A stretch of 64,000 bases of DNA, taken from an uncultured Bacteroidales bacterium (GTDB lineage: Bacteria > Bacteroidota > Bacteroidia > Bacteroidales > Muribaculaceae). Below, piece after piece: positions 51,277 through 61,083 of the stretch. Position numbers and translations under genes: made by a program. The notes under the pieces were generated by a model. It did not search any database. It was not told the origin of the DNA and saw nothing but the letters and a program-made list of their open reading frames with translations. The stretch is from the NCBI GenBank assembly GCA_902782465.1, contig CACZNH010000008.1, forward strand, positions 1-64,000, given 5' to 3'. How positions within the stretch are numbered: position 1 is the first letter of the stretch; every line of letters begins with the position of its first letter.

Positions 51277-52164
51277 ATGAAAAAGATTACAGCAAGTTTG
51301 TTTGCAGTGTTGGCGTTGATGCTGATGTCCTTCACTGCTCAAGCAGAGTATCCACGTGGCGATGTGGACTATGATAGCAATGTAGGCATTGGTGATGTCA
51401 CCTGCCTGATTGATTACCTGTTGAATGGCGTTTGGGTGGGAGAGCCTGCGACACCTGTCGACGGGCAATACCAGCGCGGCGACGTAGACCTGGATGGCAC
51501 TGTGGGCATTGGCGATGTCACCAGCCTGATTGATTACCTGTTGAACGGAACCTGGGGAGGTGAACCCGTTACTCCTCCCGATGAGCACGAATGGGTTGAC
51601 TTGGGTCTTCCCAACGGTACGTTATGGGCGACAATGAATGTCGGTGCCGACAATCCCGAGGACTTCGGCGACTATTTCGCCTGGGGCGAGACCGCTCCCA
51701 AGGATACCTATAGCTGGAGCACCTATTCATGGTGCAGGGGCTCCTATAAAACGATGACGAAGTACTGCACAAACAGTTCTTACGGCACGGTTGACGATAA
51801 GACCGAGCTGGAGCTTGAGGACGATGCCGCCTATGTGAACTGGGGCGCATCGTGGCGTATGCCGACCAAGGAGCAACAGGACGAACTGCGCGAAAACTGC
51901 ACATGGACCTGGAAGAAAATAAATAATGTGAACGGTTATCAGGTCACCGGCCCCAACGGTAATTCCCTGTTCCTGCCCGCAACGGGTTGTCGCGACGGCA
52001 GCACACACTACGATGAGAACTATTACGGCTACTATTGGTCGCGCACTCTCCACGTGGACCGCTCTTTCTATGCCTACTACATTCTTTTCTATGCACAGCA
52101 AGTGGACTTCCACAACTATCACCGCTACCAGGGGTTTGCTGTCCGCCCAGTACGTGTACAGTAG
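51277..52164 (+). CDS. Secreted protein: two dockerin-like units plus FISUMP domain
   Basis: 295 residues. Signal peptide 1-23; two dockerin-like EF-hand units directly after it (G-D-V-D-Y-D-S-N-V-G and G-D-V-D-L-D-G-T-V-G, each with L-I-D-Y-L-L-N-G); then a FISUMP (Fibrobacter succinogenes major paralogous) domain about 105-295 opening with W-V-D-L-G-L-P-N-G-T-L-W-A-T and containing G-D-Y-F-A-W-G-E-T, W-R-M-P-T-K-E-Q and a C-terminal G-F-A-V-R-P-V. Dockerin at the N-terminus is the reverse of the peptidases here. The FISUMP role is unknown, perhaps adhesion. Confidence 0.88.
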   Translation: MKKITASLFAVLALMLMSFTAQAEYPRGDVDYDSNVGIGDVTCLIDYLLNGVWVGEPATPVDGQYQRGDVDLDGTVGIGDVTSLIDYLLNGTWGGEPVTPPDEHEWVDLGLPNGTLWATMNVGADNPEDFGDYFAWGETAPKDTYSWSTYSWCRGSYKTMTKYCTNSSYGTVDDKTELELEDDAAYVNWGASWRMPTKEQQDELRENCTWTWKKINNVNGYQVTGPNGNSLFLPATGCRDGSTHYDENYYGYYWSRTLHVDRSFYAYYILFYAQQVDFHNYHRYQGFAVRPVRVQ

Positions 52165-52223: not shown

Positions 52224-52994
52224 ATGAAAAAGATTGCATTTAGTTTGTTTGCGGTACTGACAATGGCGTTGGTGTCATTTACCGCCGAAGCACAGTACGT
52301 GCGTGGTGATGTTGACCAGGATGGAACAGTGACCGTTGGCGATGTTGCCAGCCTGATTGATTACCTGTTGAATGGAACCTGGAATGATGACCCTGTCACC
52401 CCTCCCGAAGAGCATGAGTGGGTTGACCTGGGTCTGCCCAGCGGCACGTTGTGGGCAACGTGTAATATCGGGGCTAACGCTCCCGAGGAATACGGCGACT
52501 ACTTCGCCTGGGGCGAGACAAAGCCCAAATCTTTCTATTCGTTTTCTACTTACAAGTGGAGCAGCGGCAATTACAATACGTTGACAAAGTATTGTAACAA
52601 TAGCGAGTACGGTGAGGTAGATGGCAAGACGAAGTTGGAACTCGAGGACGATGCCGCTTACGTGAACTGGGGCCCGTCGTGGCGAATACCAACTACGAAC
52701 CAACTGGCAGAATTGTGCACTAACTGTACACATGCTGATACGACAATGAATAATGTGAAAGGTGTGTTGGTGACAGGCCCTAATGGGAACACTATGTTCA
52801 TGCCTTTAGCTGGCTGTCGTGAGGATAGTTTGTTGCACGGCGATAACTTGATGGGCTATTACTGGTCCGACGAGCTTATTTCGACCACCTCCTATGCCGC
52901 TTTTTATTTCAACTTGTCTTCATGGCGTTATTGGTTCGGTTATAGACGCGCTAACGGCTTCACCGTCCGCGCTGTGTACATGCCGCAGGATTAG
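52224..52994 (+). CDS. Secreted protein: dockerin-like unit plus FISUMP domain (paralogue)
   Basis: 256 residues. Signal peptide 1-23; one dockerin-like unit (G-D-V-D-Q-D-G-T-V-T with L-I-D-Y-L-L-N-G); FISUMP domain about 66-256 with W-V-D-L-G-L-P-S-G-T-L-W-A-T, G-D-Y-F-A-W-G-E-T, and a closing G-F-T-V-R-A-V. It is a tandem duplicate of the preceding gene that has one dockerin unit fewer; the FISUMP parts differ most in their last third. Likely co-transcribed (gap of 59 bases). Confidence 0.87.
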   Translation: MKKIAFSLFAVLTMALVSFTAEAQYVRGDVDQDGTVTVGDVASLIDYLLNGTWNDDPVTPPEEHEWVDLGLPSGTLWATCNIGANAPEEYGDYFAWGETKPKSFYSFSTYKWSSGNYNTLTKYCNNSEYGEVDGKTKLELEDDAAYVNWGPSWRIPTTNQLAELCTNCTHADTTMNNVKGVLVTGPNGNTMFMPLAGCREDSLLHGDNLMGYYWSDELISTTSYAAFYFNLSSWRYWFGYRRANGFTVRAVYMPQD

Positions 52995-53089: not shown

Positions 53090-53488
53090 CTAGAATTTCA
53101 TGTAGAGGCGGCGGTTGCGCCCTGCGCGATGGCTGATGTGAATCCAACTGCAGCCTTTCTCGTCGATGCATTGGTCGACGGGCAGGTTCAGGCGCTTGAT
53201 GAGCGCCAGCAGGCGGCGGTTGCCGCTGCGCGTGCCGACGGTGATGTCGGCCGCCTCGCCTCGCTGATGCTGGCTGCCGGGTGTGCCTCCCACGGCTTTG
53301 TTCAACAGGGGGCAGCGGTAGCCGCTGTTGACGCGGATGGGGCCGCCCCAGGCCTCGCGCAGCGGGTCGAGCACCTTGTCAACCAGTTCCTTCAGTGCGG
53401 TGACGGCACTGGCAGGCGGCGTGTTGTCGATGCGTAGCCGCCTGGCCGTCGCCGAGCGCGTCAATTCCTCGATGGTGAAGTACTTCAT
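53090..53488 (-). CDS. M15-family D,D-peptidase (phage-endolysin-like)
   Basis: 132 residues, Peptidase_M15_3 type, cutting cell-wall peptide crosslinks or D-Ala-D-Ala ends. Core I-R-V-N-S-G-Y-R-C-P near residue 51; zinc ligands His74 in S-Q-H-Q-R-G-E-A-A-D, Asp81, and His117 in W-I-H-I-S-H. All ligands are present, so the enzyme should be active. No signal peptide, so export needs a holin-like route or lysis. The start at 53488 overlaps the capsid gene stop (ATGA), which shows translational coupling; a longer 148-codon reading would extend into the capsid gene and lacks support. Confidence 0.9.
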   Translation of the reverse strand: MKYFTIEELTRSATARRLRIDNTPPASAVTALKELVDKVLDPLREAWGGPIRVNSGYRCPLLNKAVGGTPGSQHQRGEAADITVGTRSGNRRLLALIKRLNLPVDQCIDEKGCSWIHISHRAGRNRRLYMKF

Positions 53489-54891
53489 CGGTAATTGATG
53501 CGCATGTGCGCCTTGGGATAGCGCAGCACCAGACACGAAGCTTCGGTCATCACCAGCGCGTCAACGTTGCGCACGCCGCTCTTCTTCAGGTTCAGCTGTT
53601 CGGTGCTGAAGGGGATGTGTACATACTTCTGGATATACTCGGGGTCGATGACGATGCCGTTCTCGCTCATGCCCATCTCGTCGAAGACCTCGCTGAGCAG
53701 GAGGTAGAGGCAACCAAACTTGGACCTCAACTCGGTGAAGTCGATACCCCATTTGGACACATGCTGGTTGGCCGTGATGACGCGGGTGTAGTCCAGCTTG
53801 CTGATGCGGCTGATGAGTCCGCTGCCGCCGATGAGAATCTTGCGCTTGCTGCCGGCATTGCCGGTGAATGCGTCGTGCATCAGGTCAATCATCCTGCTGG
53901 CATCGAAGTCCAAACTCGACTCGATATAGAAGTCCTTGCCGGCCTGGTTCCAGATGCCGCCCGTGAAGTAGATGTGCTCCTTCTTGCTGTTGTCCCACAG
54001 CTGGCGTGCAGCACCGAACAGGAACGACTTCTCCATGCCCAGTCGCATGTCGTAGATGGCGGCCTCCTCCTGGTCGCTCATCGTCCAGCCCACTTCCTTG
54101 TTGGCGAGGCGCTGCAGCGTGGATTGCTCGACCTGCATCTTGAAAATCTGGCACAGGTTGCGGCCCTTGGTGGGCAAGGCCTCGAACTGCGGCGACTGCA
54201 CGTCGAGCTCACTGGCGGCACGACCCATGCGCACCAGGTAGGTACCCTGAGGGATGGCGGGAATGCAGTTGCTGACACCGCCCACCGTGGGTCCGTTCAC
54301 GGCCATCACTTTCACACCGTCCTCGTTGCGGTCCAGGACGTAGAGGATGAGGTCCTGGGTGCTCTCGGAGGTGCCATTGTTCTGATAGCCCGAGACGCCA
54401 CGCACGAGAATCGTGTCGGTAGCATCAAAAATCTCGTCATTGCCGGTGCTGATGGTGGCGATGGGAGTCTCACCGGCGTTCTCGGGGTTGGTCTCGGAGA
54501 CATCCTCCAGCAGTTGTGTCATCGTGGGCTTGGTGTCCACGCGGTAGAAATCGACGACCATGCTGCCGGCATGCTTGCTGCCTGCATAGCGCGAAATTTG
54601 GTCGATGGGCGTGGACATGGGGCGGATTTTCACGATTTGCTGGTCAATCTCGTTGAGCAACAGGTCGGGTGACCCCTCGCGGCTCAGCTCGGTGGTGAGC
54701 GGACCGTCAACGACGTGGCGACCGCCATCGGCACCGGGAACCACCATACCCACGACGGCAAGCGTGGTGCTGCTTGTTACCATACCGCATGACGCCAAAA
54801 TGGCGATGAGGATAACGGTGATGACAAAGATGACTAACTTCTTGTGGTTGCGCATCCAGCGCAGAACCTTAGTGAAATGAATAATGTTCAT
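53485..54891 (-). CDS. Major-capsid-like protein (SU10/HK97-fold) with N-terminal membrane/lipoprotein signal
   Basis: 468 residues. Residues about 50-468 resemble SU10-type major capsid proteins: L-T-T-E-L-S-R-E-G-S-P-D-L-L-L near 65, a central helix-rich part, and a closing G-V-R-N-V-D-A-L-V-M-T-E-A-S. In front is an unusual extension: a basic stretch (R11-K18), a hydrophobic helix (about 19-34) and a lipobox L-A-S-C at Cys35. The far start is favoured because its context AAAACCATGAA is the same as at the portal and scaffold-like genes; the alternative Met37 has no such context. It may be membrane- or lipid-anchored, which is unexpected for a capsid. Confidence 0.72.
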   Translation of the reverse strand: MNIIHFTKVLRWMRNHKKLVIFVITVILIAILASCGMVTSSTTLAVVGMVVPGADGGRHVVDGPLTTELSREGSPDLLLNEIDQQIVKIRPMSTPIDQISRYAGSKHAGSMVVDFYRVDTKPTMTQLLEDVSETNPENAGETPIATISTGNDEIFDATDTILVRGVSGYQNNGTSESTQDLILYVLDRNEDGVKVMAVNGPTVGGVSNCIPAIPQGTYLVRMGRAASELDVQSPQFEALPTKGRNLCQIFKMQVEQSTLQRLANKEVGWTMSDQEEAAIYDMRLGMEKSFLFGAARQLWDNSKKEHIYFTGGIWNQAGKDFYIESSLDFDASRMIDLMHDAFTGNAGSKRKILIGGSGLISRISKLDYTRVITANQHVSKWGIDFTELRSKFGCLYLLLSEVFDEMGMSENGIVIDPEYIQKYVHIPFSTEQLNLKKSGVRNVDALVMTEASCLVLRYPKAHMRINYR

Positions 54892-54970
54892 GGTTTTAAA
54901 GATTTAAATGGTTAGTAAAAAAAGTGTTTCTTGGCAATTGCCATCTAATACCTATTATCTATTATCTATC

Positions 54971-55327
54971 TCAGTCCCAGATGCTGCGGCGGCAGTATTG
55001 GGGAAAGACCGGATTGGTCTCGGAGGATTCTGCCGAGTCTCGCTCAGGCGGCAGTACGGTCTCGATTTTCTCGTTGCGGCCGCGCAGGTAACCCTCGGCA
55101 TCGGCATTCTGGACATCGGCATCATGTGTGATGCCGCGGGCAAGGGTGCTCAGCAACTCGGATGATAGCGATGCGGGAGCCATACCGTCGATGAGTTGGG
55201 CCAGGCGATTGCTGGTGTCCTCGTCGAGCCCGAGTTCGGTGATCTTGTTGGCAAGGGTGGGGGAGGCGGACGGCTCTGGGGCCTGTGCCTCTTGTGGTTG
55301 TTCACGGTTTTCTTCTTCGTTCTTCAT
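54971..55327 (-). CDS. Small acidic scaffold-like protein in capsid locus
   Basis: 118 residues. The N-terminal third is rich in E, Q, P and A (disordered); about 25-75 is helical; the end is R-S-I-W-D. Position between portal and capsid genes, small size and acidic, helical nature fit a scaffold or assembly protein of tailed-phage heads, but no domain is recognised. Starts with the locus-typical AAAACCATGAA context. Gaps to the neighbours are 79 (capsid) and 37 (portal) bases. Confidence 0.6.
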   Translation of the reverse strand: MKNEEENREQPQEAQAPEPSASPTLANKITELGLDEDTSNRLAQLIDGMAPASLSSELLSTLARGITHDADVQNADAEGYLRGRNEKIETVLPPERDSAESSETNPVFPQYCRRSIWD

Positions 55328-55364
55328 GGTTTTACTTGTTTAGTTAATCAATAATGTTAGTAGT

Positions 55365-56783
55365 TTAACGTGAGGACATTGCTAGAATTTTGCGGTCTCG
55401 CTGGCGGCGGAAGGCCTGGAACGTCTCATAGACGTCGCTCAGGGCGATGTTGGCGTTTTCGCTTTGCAACTGATAGGCGTTGGCACTGACGACGGTGGGC
55501 TCTTTGCCCTGTAGGGCACCGCTCACACCGCTGATTTCCTCAAACAGGCGCATCTGCAGTTCAATCATCTGGTAGGCACCGATGTTGGTGCCGTTGACGT
55601 TGACCTGTTCGGGCTTGGCATCGCTGTAGCGCGGGTTGTAGGGCAGCAGCCCTCCAGCACTGGACCAGCAGCGGCGTGCGTCTTCCCAGGTCCATCCGTC
55701 AGGCAGAGCCGTCTCGGGGAACAGCAGCACCCCCTTGGCGCAGGAGCGCATCACCTGGTCGAGCAGCGAGATGAGGCGGTTGACGTGCTTCTGTGTATCG
55801 ATGATGTCTTCGACCACGGCATGCACCTCGCCGTCGGTGAGCGGGTAGAGTTTGATGACAAAGGGGTGGCTGCCGTGTGCCCATGGAGAGTCATATTCGC
55901 ACAGCAGGTCACCCATGGGGCTGAACCAGCGGCAGTGCCACACGGTGGCGATGTCCCAGCGTGTGGTGACATCGGGATGACCCTTCAGGCGGCTGGCAGC
56001 ACTGGCGGGTTCCACGGTGAGTGTTCCCTCGCGGCGGTTGTGGCACACGGTCACTTCGCGGCTCTCCAGGGTCCACACCTCGATGGCACGGCACTTGCCG
56101 TCGCGGGCATGCCAAAAGTCCGTCCCCAGTTGCGAGTCGGCGCCCAGACGCGTCGTGAAGTCGGCAAGGCGTTGCTCGGCGCCATCGGTGTACAGACGCC
56201 GCACCCATGCCGCCTTGCGCGGGTTACCACCGGCCACGCGGCGCAGCAGTTGGGCGATGTTCAGGTCGTGAAGCTGTCCGATGAGTTCGCAGTCCCAGGC
56301 GCGGGTGTCGTTCATCGGCCCTGTGAACAGGCGGTTCACGTTCACGTTGTCGACCCTCACGCGTTCGTCACCGCCAGGTTCGTGGCAGGTGTCCACGCGC
56401 TGGATGCAACATCCCGAAATCAGGAACTCCTCTAGGGCCCGGCTGTCGAGTTCGTTTAGTTCGTTGTCCTCGGCAACGGCTGAGGGCGCTGTCTGTTTCC
56501 CGTCATCACTGTTGATGTACTGGGCGCGGAAACGGCCTACGATAGTCTTCACCAGCTGGCGAATCAGGTTGTTGGTGATGCTCTGGCAGCCTTGGCTGGC
56601 AAGGTGCTCACCCTCGGTCATCAGGCGCCCCTCGTGGTCTCGCACCAGGTCTCCCCACTGGTCGCCGTAGGTGAAGCGCTTGTTGCGCAGTCGTGACTGC
56701 CTGAGCCCCGCACCACTCATCCAGGCCTGGTAAGCTGCCTGCAGCACTTGAGTGTGCCGCTCATTGGTTGTTGGTGTTTTCAT
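55365..56783 (-). CDS. Phage portal-like protein
   Basis: 472 residues, size of SPP1/P22-related portal cores. N-terminal part with R-N-K-R-F-T-Y-G-D-Q-W and N-N-L-I-R-Q-L-V-K-T, a central beta/helix portion, the stem-like D-I-I-D-T-Q-K-H-V-N-R-L-I-S-L-L-D-Q-V-M near 320, and a C-terminal helix E-I-S-G-V-S-G-A-L-Q-G-K-E typical of portal crown/clip regions. In phages it forms the 12-mer through which DNA enters the head. No terminase gene is next to it, so DNA packaging by a dedicated motor is not evident. First gene of the operon. Confidence 0.8.
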   Translation of the reverse strand: MKTPTTNERHTQVLQAAYQAWMSGAGLRQSRLRNKRFTYGDQWGDLVRDHEGRLMTEGEHLASQGCQSITNNLIRQLVKTIVGRFRAQYINSDDGKQTAPSAVAEDNELNELDSRALEEFLISGCCIQRVDTCHEPGGDERVRVDNVNVNRLFTGPMNDTRAWDCELIGQLHDLNIAQLLRRVAGGNPRKAAWVRRLYTDGAEQRLADFTTRLGADSQLGTDFWHARDGKCRAIEVWTLESREVTVCHNRREGTLTVEPASAASRLKGHPDVTTRWDIATVWHCRWFSPMGDLLCEYDSPWAHGSHPFVIKLYPLTDGEVHAVVEDIIDTQKHVNRLISLLDQVMRSCAKGVLLFPETALPDGWTWEDARRCWSSAGGLLPYNPRYSDAKPEQVNVNGTNIGAYQMIELQMRLFEEISGVSGALQGKEPTVVSANAYQLQSENANIALSDVYETFQAFRRQRDRKILAMSSR

Positions 56784-56906: not shown

Positions 56907-56938
56907 AACCGCTTCCCGCTTTTTCGCGGGAGGCGGTT
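56907..56938 (-). terminator. Intrinsic terminator of the gene at 57002
   Basis: Stem AACCGCCTCCCGC with GCGGGAAGCGGTT (one G-U) on the minus strand, followed directly by eight T. Separates the sorting-tail protein gene from the capsid operon. Confidence 0.85.
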
Positions 56939-57001: not shown

Positions 57002-58231
57002 TTACTTGATGACCTTGGCGGTGGTGCGGGTGCCGTCGGTGTAGGTGGTAACAACGATGTTCACACCATCAACGGGCTCCTGGCTCATCTGACCAGCAAG
57101 GTTGTAGTAAGCTACGTTGGCAACAGCCTTCTGACCGTTAATCTCATCAACAGCCGTCATGTCCTTGTTGATGTTGACAGTGATGTCGGTGTACATGTCG
57201 GTGAAGGAGAGTTCCTGGCTGTACTTGCCGTCAACAACGATAACATAGGTCTTGGAGTGGTCCAGGCTGTAGTAGTTGCCATCCTCGGCTGGAGCAACCA
57301 GCTCACCAATCTGGTCGCCATCCATCGTCCACAGCTCAACGTCGGCTGCCAGCTCGGGCAGGTTGACGCGGATGTCGCTGGTGAAGTAGGGAGTGCGGAA
57401 GGCGGGCAGACGGTGCTCGGGCAGGTTGTACCAGTAGGTCAGCAGATTCTCGGGAATCTGGTCCACTACCTCGGAGCTGAAGCAGTACTGTCCCGAACGC
57501 ATCAGGCTGGCAACGGGCAACTCAGCGTCGTCATAGGCCATGTAGCGATACATCATGTGAATATCCTCCCAGTTGCACATCCACAGGGTGAGGTAGATGC
57601 TCTCACCGGTGTACAGGAAGGGGATGTTCCTGCCTTCTTCGTCCTTAACGTTGAAGGGGCAGTCCACGATGGTAGAGGGTTCAATGGCCCTGGCCATGAG
57701 GTCAAATTCGCTGATGTAACCAGGATGGTTGCCGAAGCCGCCGCGGCAGTTGACGGTGTCGGTCAGAAGCTCTCCGTCGGGGATATTCCACCAAACGCGA
57801 TAGCCATTACCAAACCACTCGTCATACTCGTTCAGCTCCTCACCATCAGCGATGTTCTTGCACCATGCCACTACGTCGAGGTAGGTGACGCCTCTTGTGG
57901 TGGCGTCGGTGGCTACGTCATAGCCGTCGAGGGCAAGACCGATAACCTTTGCATTGGCAGGGAGGGTGGGAGTACCCTTGGTGATGTCACCGTTAGAGAA
58001 GTCTGTGCTGGTAACAACATACTCAGGCTGGAACTTCATCATGCGCATACCGGGGTCAAAGTCGGGGTAATTCTGAATGTGCTGATAATGCTCAATGTCA
58101 ATGGGCAGTGCGAACAACAGAGTGTCGCCAGCGGGTTGAGGAACATTAACAGCCGTGATGTCGGTATAGGCATTAGCAACACCAAAACCGGCCACAAGCA
58201 TCAAAAAAGTGGAAAGTAAAACCTTTTTCAT
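57002..58231 (-). CDS. Secreted protein of unknown function with C-terminal sorting-like tail
   Basis: 409 residues. Signal peptide 1-21, a large middle part without recognised domains (Trp- and Asp-rich, with D-I-T in several places), and a C-terminal segment of about 45 residues (V-A-Y-Y-N-L-A-G-Q, then G-V-N-I-V-V-T-T-Y, then K-V-I-K) that resembles the sorting tail of Bacteroidetes type IX secretion cargo or the related short tails in Prevotella-like species. This suggests surface export, but the T9SS itself is not in this window. Own promoter and terminator. Confidence 0.75.
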   Translation of the reverse strand: MKKVLLSTFLMLVAGFGVANAYTDITAVNVPQPAGDTLLFALPIDIEHYQHIQNYPDFDPGMRMMKFQPEYVVTSTDFSNGDITKGTPTLPANAKVIGLALDGYDVATDATTRGVTYLDVVAWCKNIADGEELNEYDEWFGNGYRVWWNIPDGELLTDTVNCRGGFGNHPGYISEFDLMARAIEPSTIVDCPFNVKDEEGRNIPFLYTGESIYLTLWMCNWEDIHMMYRYMAYDDAELPVASLMRSGQYCFSSEVVDQIPENLLTYWYNLPEHRLPAFRTPYFTSDIRVNLPELAADVELWTMDGDQIGELVAPAEDGNYYSLDHSKTYVIVVDGKYSQELSFTDMYTDITVNINKDMTAVDEINGQKAVANVAYYNLAGQMSQEPVDGVNIVVTTYTDGTRTTAKVIK

Positions 58232-58288
58232 AATGTCTTTAATTTTGTATAGTTATAAATATTTGTTCAGTTCACTATATAGATGATG

Positions 58289-58319
58289 CAAAGTTAAACT
58301 AAATTTCTCGATGTAACAA
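58289..58319 (-). promoter_or_regulatory. Promoter of the sorting-tail protein gene
   Basis: TTG (58319-58317), 20 bases, TAACTTTG (58296-58289) on the minus strand, about 60 bases before the start. Confidence 0.7.
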
Positions 58320-58389
58320 GAAGTTCTCCGTTTTTTTTAAAAAAAAACGCGATTTCGTCAAAAATGAGCACGTTGTTGCCGATTTTCAG

Positions 58390-61083
58390 TTACTGGTTCT
58401 TGGCTCGTTGTACCAGTTGGCCCAACAAGAATACAGGCAATGTGCCCAATATTATCCATAGCCAAGTGTCCCACTCGAGCGGGGAGCAGTTGAACAGCGG
58501 ACCAGCAAACTGGACAATGAGAACCTGCCCAACGAAGACAACTGCTGCAACGGTCCAGAACACCTTGCTGTCCTCCATGTTGTTGAATGCACTCTTGCCT
58601 GTGGCAAAAGACCTGGCGTTGAGCATGTTCCAGAATTGCAGGAAGACAAATACGCTAAAGAACACGCCCATCTCATGCGGATTGATGTTGGGGTTGATGC
58701 CGCGGGCAAAGACGGGCCCGCCATTGGCCTCGCGAACGAAGAAATAGAACAGGCCTATCATCAGCACCGCAAAGATGGTGCCGGTCAACATGATGAACTT
58801 CATCATGGCTGGTGTGATGATGCTGGCGCGCGAGTCGCGGGGTTTCTGTCTCATGAGTACGCTGTTGGGCGGCAGCGACGCCAGGGCCAGGGCAGCAAAA
58901 GTGTCCATGATGAGGTTGACCCATAGCATCTGTGTCACGGTGAGGGCCGGCTGCTTGCTGAAGAACGAGCAGATGGCGACAACCAGGCAGGCGCACACGT
59001 TGACCGCAAGCTGGAACAGGATGAAACGCTGAATGTTGCTGTACAGGGAGCGTCCCCACAGGACGGCCTTGTTGATACTGGCAAATGAGTTGTCGAGGAT
59101 GGTGATGTCGCTGGCCTCTTTGGCGACAGCGGTGCCATCGCCCATCGACAGGCCCACTTGTGCCGCGTTGAGGGCTGGCGCATCATTGGTACCATCGCCG
59201 GTTACGGCAACGACCTCGCCCTGTTGCTGCAGGAGCCTGACGAGCCGTGCCTTGTCGTCGGGACGTGCGCGTGCCATGATTTTGATGGCTGCTGCGCGCT
59301 GGGCCGCCTCGTTGTCATCAAGGGCGGCAAAGTCCGGTCCCGTGATAATGGCATCGTCGCCATCGTCATCGGTCCACAAGCCTACCTGGCGGCCGATTTC
59401 GCGTGCCGTGGCTCCTGTGTCTCCAGTGATGATTTTCACCTTCACGCCCGCATTGCGGCAGTCCTGGATGGCGGCGGGTACATCGGCGCGTACAGGATCG
59501 CTGATGGCAACGATTCCCATAAAGGTGAGTTCCTTGCATTTTCCATCCGTCAATTGCTTGATGGCATCCTCGACATCTTGGCCGTCGGGCAATTCAGTGT
59601 AGGCAAACCCCAGCGTGCGCATGGCCTTGGCCTGATAGCTGGCCAGTTCTTCATTAATCTGCTGGAAAGTGACGTCGCCAACTACATTATCGCACAGGCG
59701 CATGACAATCTCAGGGGCGCCCTTGAGCAGCATTAACCGTTTGCCGGTGGTACTGGAGATGACTGTAGCCATGAATTTGTTCATGGTCGAGAACGGCAAC
59801 TGGGTCAGTAATTCACTGCTCTCACGCAGTTCCATGTAATCGGCTCCAGCACTGTGCAGCCACAGCAACAGGGCTCCCTCGGTGGGATTGCCCAGCGCCA
59901 CGATGTTATTGGGGTCGCTGTCGTCAAGGAAGGCTGTGCTGTTGCAGGCGATGCTCTCTTGGACAATCATGCTTGCCTGGTCGTCGGTGAGTTTGTCACC
60001 GTCGATGAGGCCGTAGAAGTGGGCATGATAGACCTGCATCTTGTTTTGGGTGAGCGTGCCGGTCTTGTCGGTACAGATAACGGTGGTGGCTCCCATCGTT
60101 TCACAGGCATGCATGCGGCGCACCAGATTGTTATGCTTCAGCATCTTGCGCATGCTCAACGCCAGTGAAAGGGTTACGCTCATGGGCAGGCCCTCGGGCA
60201 CCGACACAACAATGAGTGTCACGGCCAGCATCACAGTCTCGATGAAATACTGGGCGTCGGCAACAAGGCCTTCGCTGCCGGCAATGAAATACTCAAGCAA
60301 TCGACCCAGCACAAGCAGGCCAGCCATGACATAGCTGCCGCGGGCAATCGTACGTCCCAGACGGTCGAGCTGCTGGGTGAGAGGGGTCTTGACGGCATTG
60401 TCGATTTGGGAGTCTCTGAAGACTTTGCCATATTCCGTCTTGTCACCTACACGTTCCACACGCATGACGGCACCACCCTCGATGATGGTGCTGGCACGGA
60501 GCAACAGGTTGGCAGGATAAGTAGTAGAGCTCTCGTTGGCTGCGGCAATAGCGGCATCATGCGTTTTCCAAGCCGATGGCTCTCCCGTGAAGGAACTCTC
60601 GTCCACGGTGAGGTCGTGGCTGATGACAATGGTGCCGTCGGCTGGAATCTTCTCACCGGTGTCAAGGATGACGATATCATCGACCACGATGTCGCAGCGG
60701 GGAACCTGGGTGACGTGCCCAGCTCGCATCACCTTGACCATAACATGGTCGTCGGTCTGGTTGAGCAGGCGGAATTTCTTGTTGGCGTTGACTTCGACAA
60801 GGAAACCTACCAGTGTGGCAAGCACGATAGCCAGGAAAATGCCCAGCGGCTCAAACAGGATGGTAGCGCCAAGCCCCAACCAAAAGTATTCATAAATGGA
60901 TAGTCCTACCGACAGCATGAGAGCCACCAGCAGAATCTTGATGAGTGGGTCATTGAATTTGTCGAGAAACTGCTTCCACAGCGGTTCACGAGCCGGTGGG
61001 GTGAGCACATTGTCACCATGTTCCTGACGGCTGGCGAGCACTTGCTCGGCAGTCAAGCCCTTATCTAATTTGGCTTTTACCAT
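58390..61083 (-). CDS. Calcium-translocating P-type ATPase (PMCA-type)
   Basis: 897-residue cation pump exporting Ca2+. Actuator motif T-G-E-P-S (166-170) where T-G-E-S is usual; helix-4 ion motif V-P-E-G-L-P (295-300); phosphorylation site D-K-T-G-T-L-T with Asp339; hinge T-G-D-G-T-N-D-A-P near 630; ten transmembrane helices. Short N- and C-terminal tails, without a calmodulin-type domain. The Glu of V-P-E-G and an Asn/Asp in M6 fit type II Ca2+ pumps. It lies 99 bases downstream of the GT2 gene; no promoter box is seen between, so read-through is possible. Confidence 0.94.
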   Translation of the reverse strand: MVKAKLDKGLTAEQVLASRQEHGDNVLTPPAREPLWKQFLDKFNDPLIKILLVALMLSVGLSIYEYFWLGLGATILFEPLGIFLAIVLATLVGFLVEVNANKKFRLLNQTDDHVMVKVMRAGHVTQVPRCDIVVDDIVILDTGEKIPADGTIVISHDLTVDESSFTGEPSAWKTHDAAIAAANESSTTYPANLLLRASTIIEGGAVMRVERVGDKTEYGKVFRDSQIDNAVKTPLTQQLDRLGRTIARGSYVMAGLLVLGRLLEYFIAGSEGLVADAQYFIETVMLAVTLIVVSVPEGLPMSVTLSLALSMRKMLKHNNLVRRMHACETMGATTVICTDKTGTLTQNKMQVYHAHFYGLIDGDKLTDDQASMIVQESIACNSTAFLDDSDPNNIVALGNPTEGALLLWLHSAGADYMELRESSELLTQLPFSTMNKFMATVISSTTGKRLMLLKGAPEIVMRLCDNVVGDVTFQQINEELASYQAKAMRTLGFAYTELPDGQDVEDAIKQLTDGKCKELTFMGIVAISDPVRADVPAAIQDCRNAGVKVKIITGDTGATAREIGRQVGLWTDDDGDDAIITGPDFAALDDNEAAQRAAAIKIMARARPDDKARLVRLLQQQGEVVAVTGDGTNDAPALNAAQVGLSMGDGTAVAKEASDITILDNSFASINKAVLWGRSLYSNIQRFILFQLAVNVCACLVVAICSFFSKQPALTVTQMLWVNLIMDTFAALALASLPPNSVLMRQKPRDSRASIITPAMMKFIMLTGTIFAVLMIGLFYFFVREANGGPVFARGINPNINPHEMGVFFSVFVFLQFWNMLNARSFATGKSAFNNMEDSKVFWTVAAVVFVGQVLIVQFAGPLFNCSPLEWDTWLWIILGTLPVFLLGQLVQRAKNQ

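Follow-up and report, generated by a model that had tools for sequence, protein, structure and literature searches.

Packaging and tail genes kept apart from a Muribaculaceae phage-type head locus: a candidate gene transfer agent of Bacteroidales

Why would a bacterial chromosome keep genes for a phage head, set among ordinary genes and apart from those that would fill the head with DNA? The question is raised by a stretch of 64,000 nucleotides (hereafter the window; contig CACZNH010000008.1 of assembly GCA_902782465.1, positions 1 to 64,000) from an uncultured Bacteroidales bacterium of the Muribaculaceae, in which four phage-type genes occupy positions 53090 to 56783. An earlier note on this DNA had read them as a domesticated capsid system whose packaging and infection parts are missing, and had suggested a container, secretion or release device. 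We found that a large terminase subunit (TerL) and a tail nozzle are kept in the same genome outside the window, and that the capsid and TerL genes diverge along with the host under purifying selection. In our judgement the window probably holds the head-and-lysis locus of an ancient, dispersed, podovirus-derived, host-owned candidate gene transfer agent (GTA) of Bacteroidales.

The four genes are intact and run on the minus strand from 56783 to 53090 as one compact operon:

55365..56783, minus strand: portal protein, P22-like, 472 amino acids (P22_portal PF16510, E 1.7e-17; phrog_156, E 1.4e-40)
54971..55327, minus strand: small scaffold-like protein, 118 amino acids (named from its position and from BLAST to a phage protein upstream of the major capsid gene)
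53485..54891, minus strand: major capsid protein (MCP), SU10/HK97-type, 468 amino acids (SU10_MCP PF17236, E 7e-47)
53090..53488, minus strand: M15-family peptidase, endolysin-like, 132 amino acids (Peptidase_M15_3, E 2e-18; phrog_894 endolysin, E 2e-34)

The Pfam and PHROGs matches of the portal, MCP and M15 proteins lie well above chance, and the single operon that the earlier note had described is borne out. An MCP profile (A5) also matched the major capsid protein of VP1 in the PDB (9in6_M, E 1.7e-15). The M15 start is better set at the ATG at 53488, which gives 132 amino acids, as in relatives, and an ATGA overlap with the MCP stop. The zinc-ligand-like residues H74, D81 and H117 of this enzyme are retained in 40/40, 40/40 and 39/40 rows, respectively. 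A Pfam search of the small gene (55327-54971) gave no useful match, and we infer its scaffold-like role from its position directly upstream of the MCP gene. It is a shortened homologue of a phage protein of 251-283 amino acids and retains a GYLRGRNE-type stretch. The portal is likewise shorter at its C-terminus than in phage relatives, by about 120-137 amino acids (alignments stop at residue 520-526 of 644-657), and its length is 441-511 amino acids in 34 loci as against 644-657 in the frames of three phages.

Searching the window by tblastn, with proteins from parts of four phage relatives, returned no terminase or tail homologues, nor any other match beyond the operon, and for the window their reported absence stands; for the genome it does not, since TerL and the nozzle lie at other chromosomal places. 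Identical in 41/41 TerL sequences are K126, G131, S133 and T134, which we take to be Walker A residues, E235, presumably of Walker B, and D439, D448, E498, D588 and D589, presumably the nuclease acids; TerL thus appears to keep its ATPase and nuclease residues intact. The nozzle has no sequence match in the PDB and its identity was therefore settled by fold comparison: its predicted fold matches the P22 gp10, T7 gp12 and SU10 nozzles, which marks it, as far as a predicted structure can tell, as a podovirus-type tail nozzle. A head-tail adaptor occurs in about half of the genus and resembles the phicrAss001, SU10 and GP4 adaptors in predicted fold, with no meaningful sequence match in the PDB. 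In the genome of the window neither an adaptor nor a small terminase was found with queries A2 and A3, which divergent copies may have escaped. No fibre, holin or regulator was found, and no search was made for fibre or regulator genes co-occurring with TerL.

These parts bear directly on what the locus is for. A DNA-free, encapsulin-like domesticated shell, used as a container or for secretion or release, would account for a shell, portal and wall enzyme standing alone in the window and for a scaffold-MCP pair standing alone in other species of the genus. Such a container needs neither a TerL with its catalytic residues nor a nozzle, however, and TerL tracks MCP across families; we therefore consider it very unlikely. 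The terminase-free version was dropped once TerL had been matched in 95/101 genus genomes (with TerL from a viral contig as query), and an encapsulin nanocompartment was rejected because a portal, TerL and nozzle are kept alongside an MCP of SU10 phage type. Instead, the catalytically conserved TerL and the nozzle, with the adaptor where it occurs, point to a DNA-packaging particle, that is, to a GTA. The retention of a nozzle, portal and M15 enzyme would also suit a domesticated short-tailed particle for killing or signalling whose DNA content is incidental. It is quite improbable that this is the case, since a killing particle that has no head can do without capsid and TerL, and both are selected here; a tailocin, with tail genes but without capsid and terminase, was rejected for the presence of these two.

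The shortened portal and scaffold-like proteins invite another thought, as this is what would be expected of dominant-negative parts. Host-kept capsid, portal, terminase and tail parts might interfere when phages from the same group infect the cell and assemble, and related phages are still present in the genus. Poisoning of this kind needs neither invariant catalytic residues in TerL nor nearly invariant ones in M15, and it has no need for nearly all parts from scaffold to nozzle, so that phage defence appears unlikely.

How widely are these genes kept? The genomes compared are mostly metagenome bins. MCP was found in 59/61 genus genomes, including that of the window (G019 and G032 being without), and in 355/397 genomes of the family, covering 29/30 genera and 209/222 of the good-quality genomes; most carry one copy, and many genomes of genus g70 gave weak matches only. 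Among 393 genomes sampled from the order, 33 matched: the genome of the window, five of the same family, 25 from six further families with 49%–56% identity, and two with 29%–35% identity. MCP-negative members of the six further families may be among 340 of the other order genomes sampled. A portal homologue was present in 95/101 genus genomes (that of G102 being prophage-like only), whereas outside the genus the portal, nozzle and adaptor are known from fetched loci. TerL was found in 55/56 MCP-positive genomes tested, with G145 as the exception, as against 0/20 chosen MCP-negative genomes of the order.

Could these be the genes of a decayed prophage, or a number of separate remnants? Their phage origin is clear. 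Relatives include prophage-like regions in three genomes and the following Bacteroides phages, all complete and 64-68 kb long:

BS-TP4, accession PQ571277
BF1-TP2, accession PQ571263
BKO1-TP3, accession PQ571269

Some copies are indeed broken: the best MCP match is split or stop-containing in G007, G014, G015 and G041. Frame-broken copies in most relatives had been named beforehand as a sign of such decay, and these four among 59 MCP-positive genus genomes fall far short of it; a patchy, frame-decayed remnant was accordingly rejected. The family-wide distribution and the scattering of the genes likewise speak against a capsid-forming phage satellite, which would be a compact, mobile and patchily distributed island, although no search for an integrase was made. 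The prophage-like regions themselves (L195 in G041:C41, L198 in G102:C27, and G132:C35) contain TerL, adaptor and small-terminase relatives, and part of this gene set is present in the three genomes as host-kept copies too.

Descent and selection were examined for MCP and TerL in 40 species picked for available loci, 20 from the subgroup of the window (type A) and 20 others (type B), with 38 species in the TerL comparison. Distances track those of rpoB both for MCP (Mantel r 0.94, p 0.001) and for TerL (r 0.93, p 0.001). The splits in common with the rpoB tree number 21/37 for MCP and 13/35 for TerL (permutation 0.30 and 0.20), and type A forms one side of a branch in the MCP, TerL and rpoB trees. 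The median dN/dS of unsaturated pairs was 0.18-0.21 for MCP and 0.17-0.28 for TerL; for pairs with dS <1 it was 0.18-0.31 and 0.28-0.41, respectively, with few pairs for type B and TerL. The corresponding rpoB values were 0.04-0.10. Both genes are thus under purifying selection, with medians mostly near 0.2-0.3. TerL also contains fewer carbons per residue (mean 5.03) than six phage, prophage or viral-contig rows (5.13-5.19; p 6e-7, the rows being mutually related), while no carbon-saving bias was seen in MCP (p 0.12). One result gives prophage decay some ground: within type A, agreement with rpoB is weak, as only 6/17 MCP splits and 3/17 TerL splits are in common (permutation maximum 3). Against decay stand the near-universal and mostly single-copy presence, the dN/dS values, the rpoB-like divergence over the genus and a fumarate hydratase synteny across families (described below). 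Because of the rpoB comparison and this synteny, we do not regard the loci as independent prophages, and decay seems a highly improbable explanation. The wide presence, purifying selection and rpoB-like divergence uphold the view that this is a domesticated, host-kept capsid system unlike random prophage decay.

The genes are arranged in two ways within the genus. In type A, the portal, scaffold-like, MCP and usually M15 genes are clustered, and the nozzle and TerL lie together elsewhere in most fetched stretches. Where MCP and TerL of type A share a contig, they are 14-57 kb apart (G017, G034, G043, G051, G059, G126, G127, and G137). In type B, the scaffold-like and MCP genes are paired, M15 and portal often form a second pair, and TerL, nozzle and adaptor are often solitary. 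The nozzle, adaptor and portal are in a row in G050, and MCP and the M15-portal pair are at most 6 kb apart in G014 and G038. The single-contig genome G060 has its genes at five places: nozzle at 925684, TerL at 937082, M15-portal at about 1358 kb, adaptor at 1539693 and MCP at 1893627. No main cluster of particle genes was seen in the genus. We also observed a portal and a shortened MCP 28 kb apart in G127:C5, an additional C-terminal piece of MCP in G036 (C8:129492-129803), about 4 kb away from the intact copy, and, near TerL in L145, genes for a glycosyltransferase and a DUF6048 protein.

In the family's other genera, MCP, adaptor and portal are in a row behind the scaffold-like gene (L328 and L329) or a similar small gene (L330 and L331). 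TerL is near the MCP locus in L331 and L332. A terminase beside homologous loci had been proposed as the mark of a simple prophage remnant, and these two loci show it; nonetheless, they too are isolated fragments set among other genes, and neither is a complete prophage. In the six further families, the genes after scaffold and MCP are a small C160 gene, the adaptor and others of tail type, in combinations that vary. A fumarate hydratase frame is beside the locus or within a few frames of it in 11/13 of these loci (L317-L323, L325-L327, and L309, from five other families), the exceptions being two f22 loci; five of the 11 are confirmed as class I by NCBIfam and the others were assigned by clustering. 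This neighbourhood probably marks an old insertion point. TerL and MCP are 31-45 kb apart in G669, G702, G742, G676, G087 and G647 and 93 kb apart in G765; they are closely co-inherited without tight linkage.

Several properties of GTAs therefore come together here: phage-derived head, packaging and tail genes in a host genome (the adaptor in other species), vertical inheritance with purifying selection for MCP and TerL (with the weak rpoB agreement in the subgroup of the window), intact TerL residues, and genes at several loci, as in G060. A GTA is the best reading because this particle-gene set is selected at host level with its packaging motor intact. It is possible to picture how such a particle would work. 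Scaffold and MCP would assemble into a prohead, which might begin to form at the membrane via the N-terminal segment of MCP, and the portal would form the entry vertex. TerL would pack the head with host DNA and would not favour its own genes, adaptor and nozzle would seal the head and supply a short tail, and the M15 enzyme would help to lyse a few producer cells; the particles would carry host DNA to kin. Packaging, release and transfer of host DNA are what we infer from the genes.

The membrane step is suggested by a hydrophobic, membrane-type segment at about residues 19-37 of MCP. A clear hydrophobic stretch near the N-terminus occurs in 77/80 MCP rows, including four of phage or viral-contig origin (exceptions L094, L096, and L105), and in three genera (L328, L329, and L330) MCP begins directly behind this segment. 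In phage and prophage relatives L114, L115, L116 and L195, a gene for a rhomboid-domain protein (PF01694) lies no more than about 1.5 kb from that for MCP, and none was noted near MCP in L112 or L198. Two examples are given below:

L114:9830-11467, MCP, with L114:7781-8308, rhomboid-domain frame (PF01694)
L115:20040-21482, MCP, with L115:18173-18691, rhomboid-domain frame (PF01694)

We propose that proheads may start at the membrane and that the MCP anchor is then cut off. A search of the open-licence literature found no paper that links a rhomboid protease with the major capsid protein of a phage. In 56/80 MCPs, a lipobox-like motif, loosely defined and with Cys as its last residue (e.g., ILASC or ILGGC), is found near the end of the segment.

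A wider history can be offered tentatively, and we regard it as possible rather than probable. One ancient GTA may be common to at least seven Bacteroidales families, having arisen from a short-tailed phage before their split, been fixed first beside fumarate hydratase and later been scattered as single genes and pairs. Its capsid would be assembled at the inner membrane via an anchored MCP, whose release would come later by cleavage; in the phage ancestors, a rhomboid protease of the phage's own would make the cut. Such a device would offer gut bacteria of one of the commonest groups a permanent path for exchanging genes.

The surroundings of the operon in the window are those of an ordinary chromosome, as had been said, since the flanking genes with Pfam matches encode a P-type cation ATPase and an alpha-galactosidase. 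A strong terminator had also been ascribed to the operon, and this could not be upheld:

56914..56931, minus strand: terminator-like hairpin, a consensus match only, between the upstream gene 57002-58231 and the operon

This hairpin (56931-56914), the only terminator-like one on the minus strand, is upstream of the portal gene and closes the neighbouring gene 57002-58231 and not the operon; sites called by consensus numbered six, as against 4.6 expected. The P-type ATPase and the protein 57002-58231 (together 57002-61083) are at most 10 kb from the operon in type A loci L032, L043, L056 and L057, partly inverted. Downstream, 51277-52164 and 52224-52994 encode two proteins in tandem, of secreted type and with stretches that resemble dockerin and Lcl_C; relatives of them are also found close to the locus in several further genomes.

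Few lineages are known to have GTAs. If our reading is true, most Muribaculaceae-type genomes and members of several related families in gut and rumen carry an overlooked, heritable gene-exchange device. A full-text search of the open-licence literature for 'gene transfer agent' with Muribaculaceae found no paper, and we did not find such a particle described there for this group of gut bacteria. It would help to interpret host-DNA signals in viromes: a mouse-gut study reported 46 contigs with a generalised-transduction or GTA pattern, and of its 186 contigs showing a mobilisation pattern of any kind, 83 belonged to Bacteroidetes (PMC7667829). Our results also suggest that the genes of a GTA can become dispersed singly or in twos, a form that searches for prophage clusters would overlook, and they open to testing the idea that capsids assemble at a membrane and that the anchor is then cleaved.

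Among known systems, the three Bacteroides phages named above have a homologous portal (33%–35% identity) and MCP (36%–37%). BS-TP4 and BF1-TP2, the two examined in more depth, likewise have relatives of TerL, scaffold, adaptor and nozzle, and the N-terminus of their MCP is hydrophobic. Unlike the host locus, they hold portal, TerL, scaffold and MCP within about 7-8 kb, have a longer portal and scaffold, and carry a rhomboid-domain gene. RcGTA is siphovirus-like with a main cluster, in contrast to the podovirus-like parts seen here. In RcGTA and its relatives in Alphaproteobacteria, as in the Bacteroidales system, phage genes for head, packaging and tail are retained by the host at more than one locus, and GC content is elevated; here it is 0.58-0.65 in the operon genes, 0.61 in TerL and 0.65 in the nozzle of the same genome as against 0.544 (sd 0.039) in 44 other window frames. 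Elevated GC and cheaper proteins are reported for the alphaproteobacterial GTAs (PMC7360931); the corresponding carbon saving is seen here in TerL only. GTAs typically have their packaging and structural genes distributed over multiple loci, and some of these loci comprise no more than one or two genes (PMC11841831). FpGTA of Faecalibacterium prausnitzii likewise belongs to a gut bacterium and is podovirus-like; one of its operons combines TerL, portal, scaffold and MCP, and a second, which in one strain lies about 125 kb from the first, adds other structural genes and lysis genes (PMC12946183). Particles, their DNA and proteomics were shown there, whereas the Bacteroidales system is known from its genes alone. 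The host of FpGTA is a member of Bacillota, and from this we presume that the two arose independently. The Bacteroidales system differs further from FpGTA in being spread over up to five places in the genome and in extending through several families.

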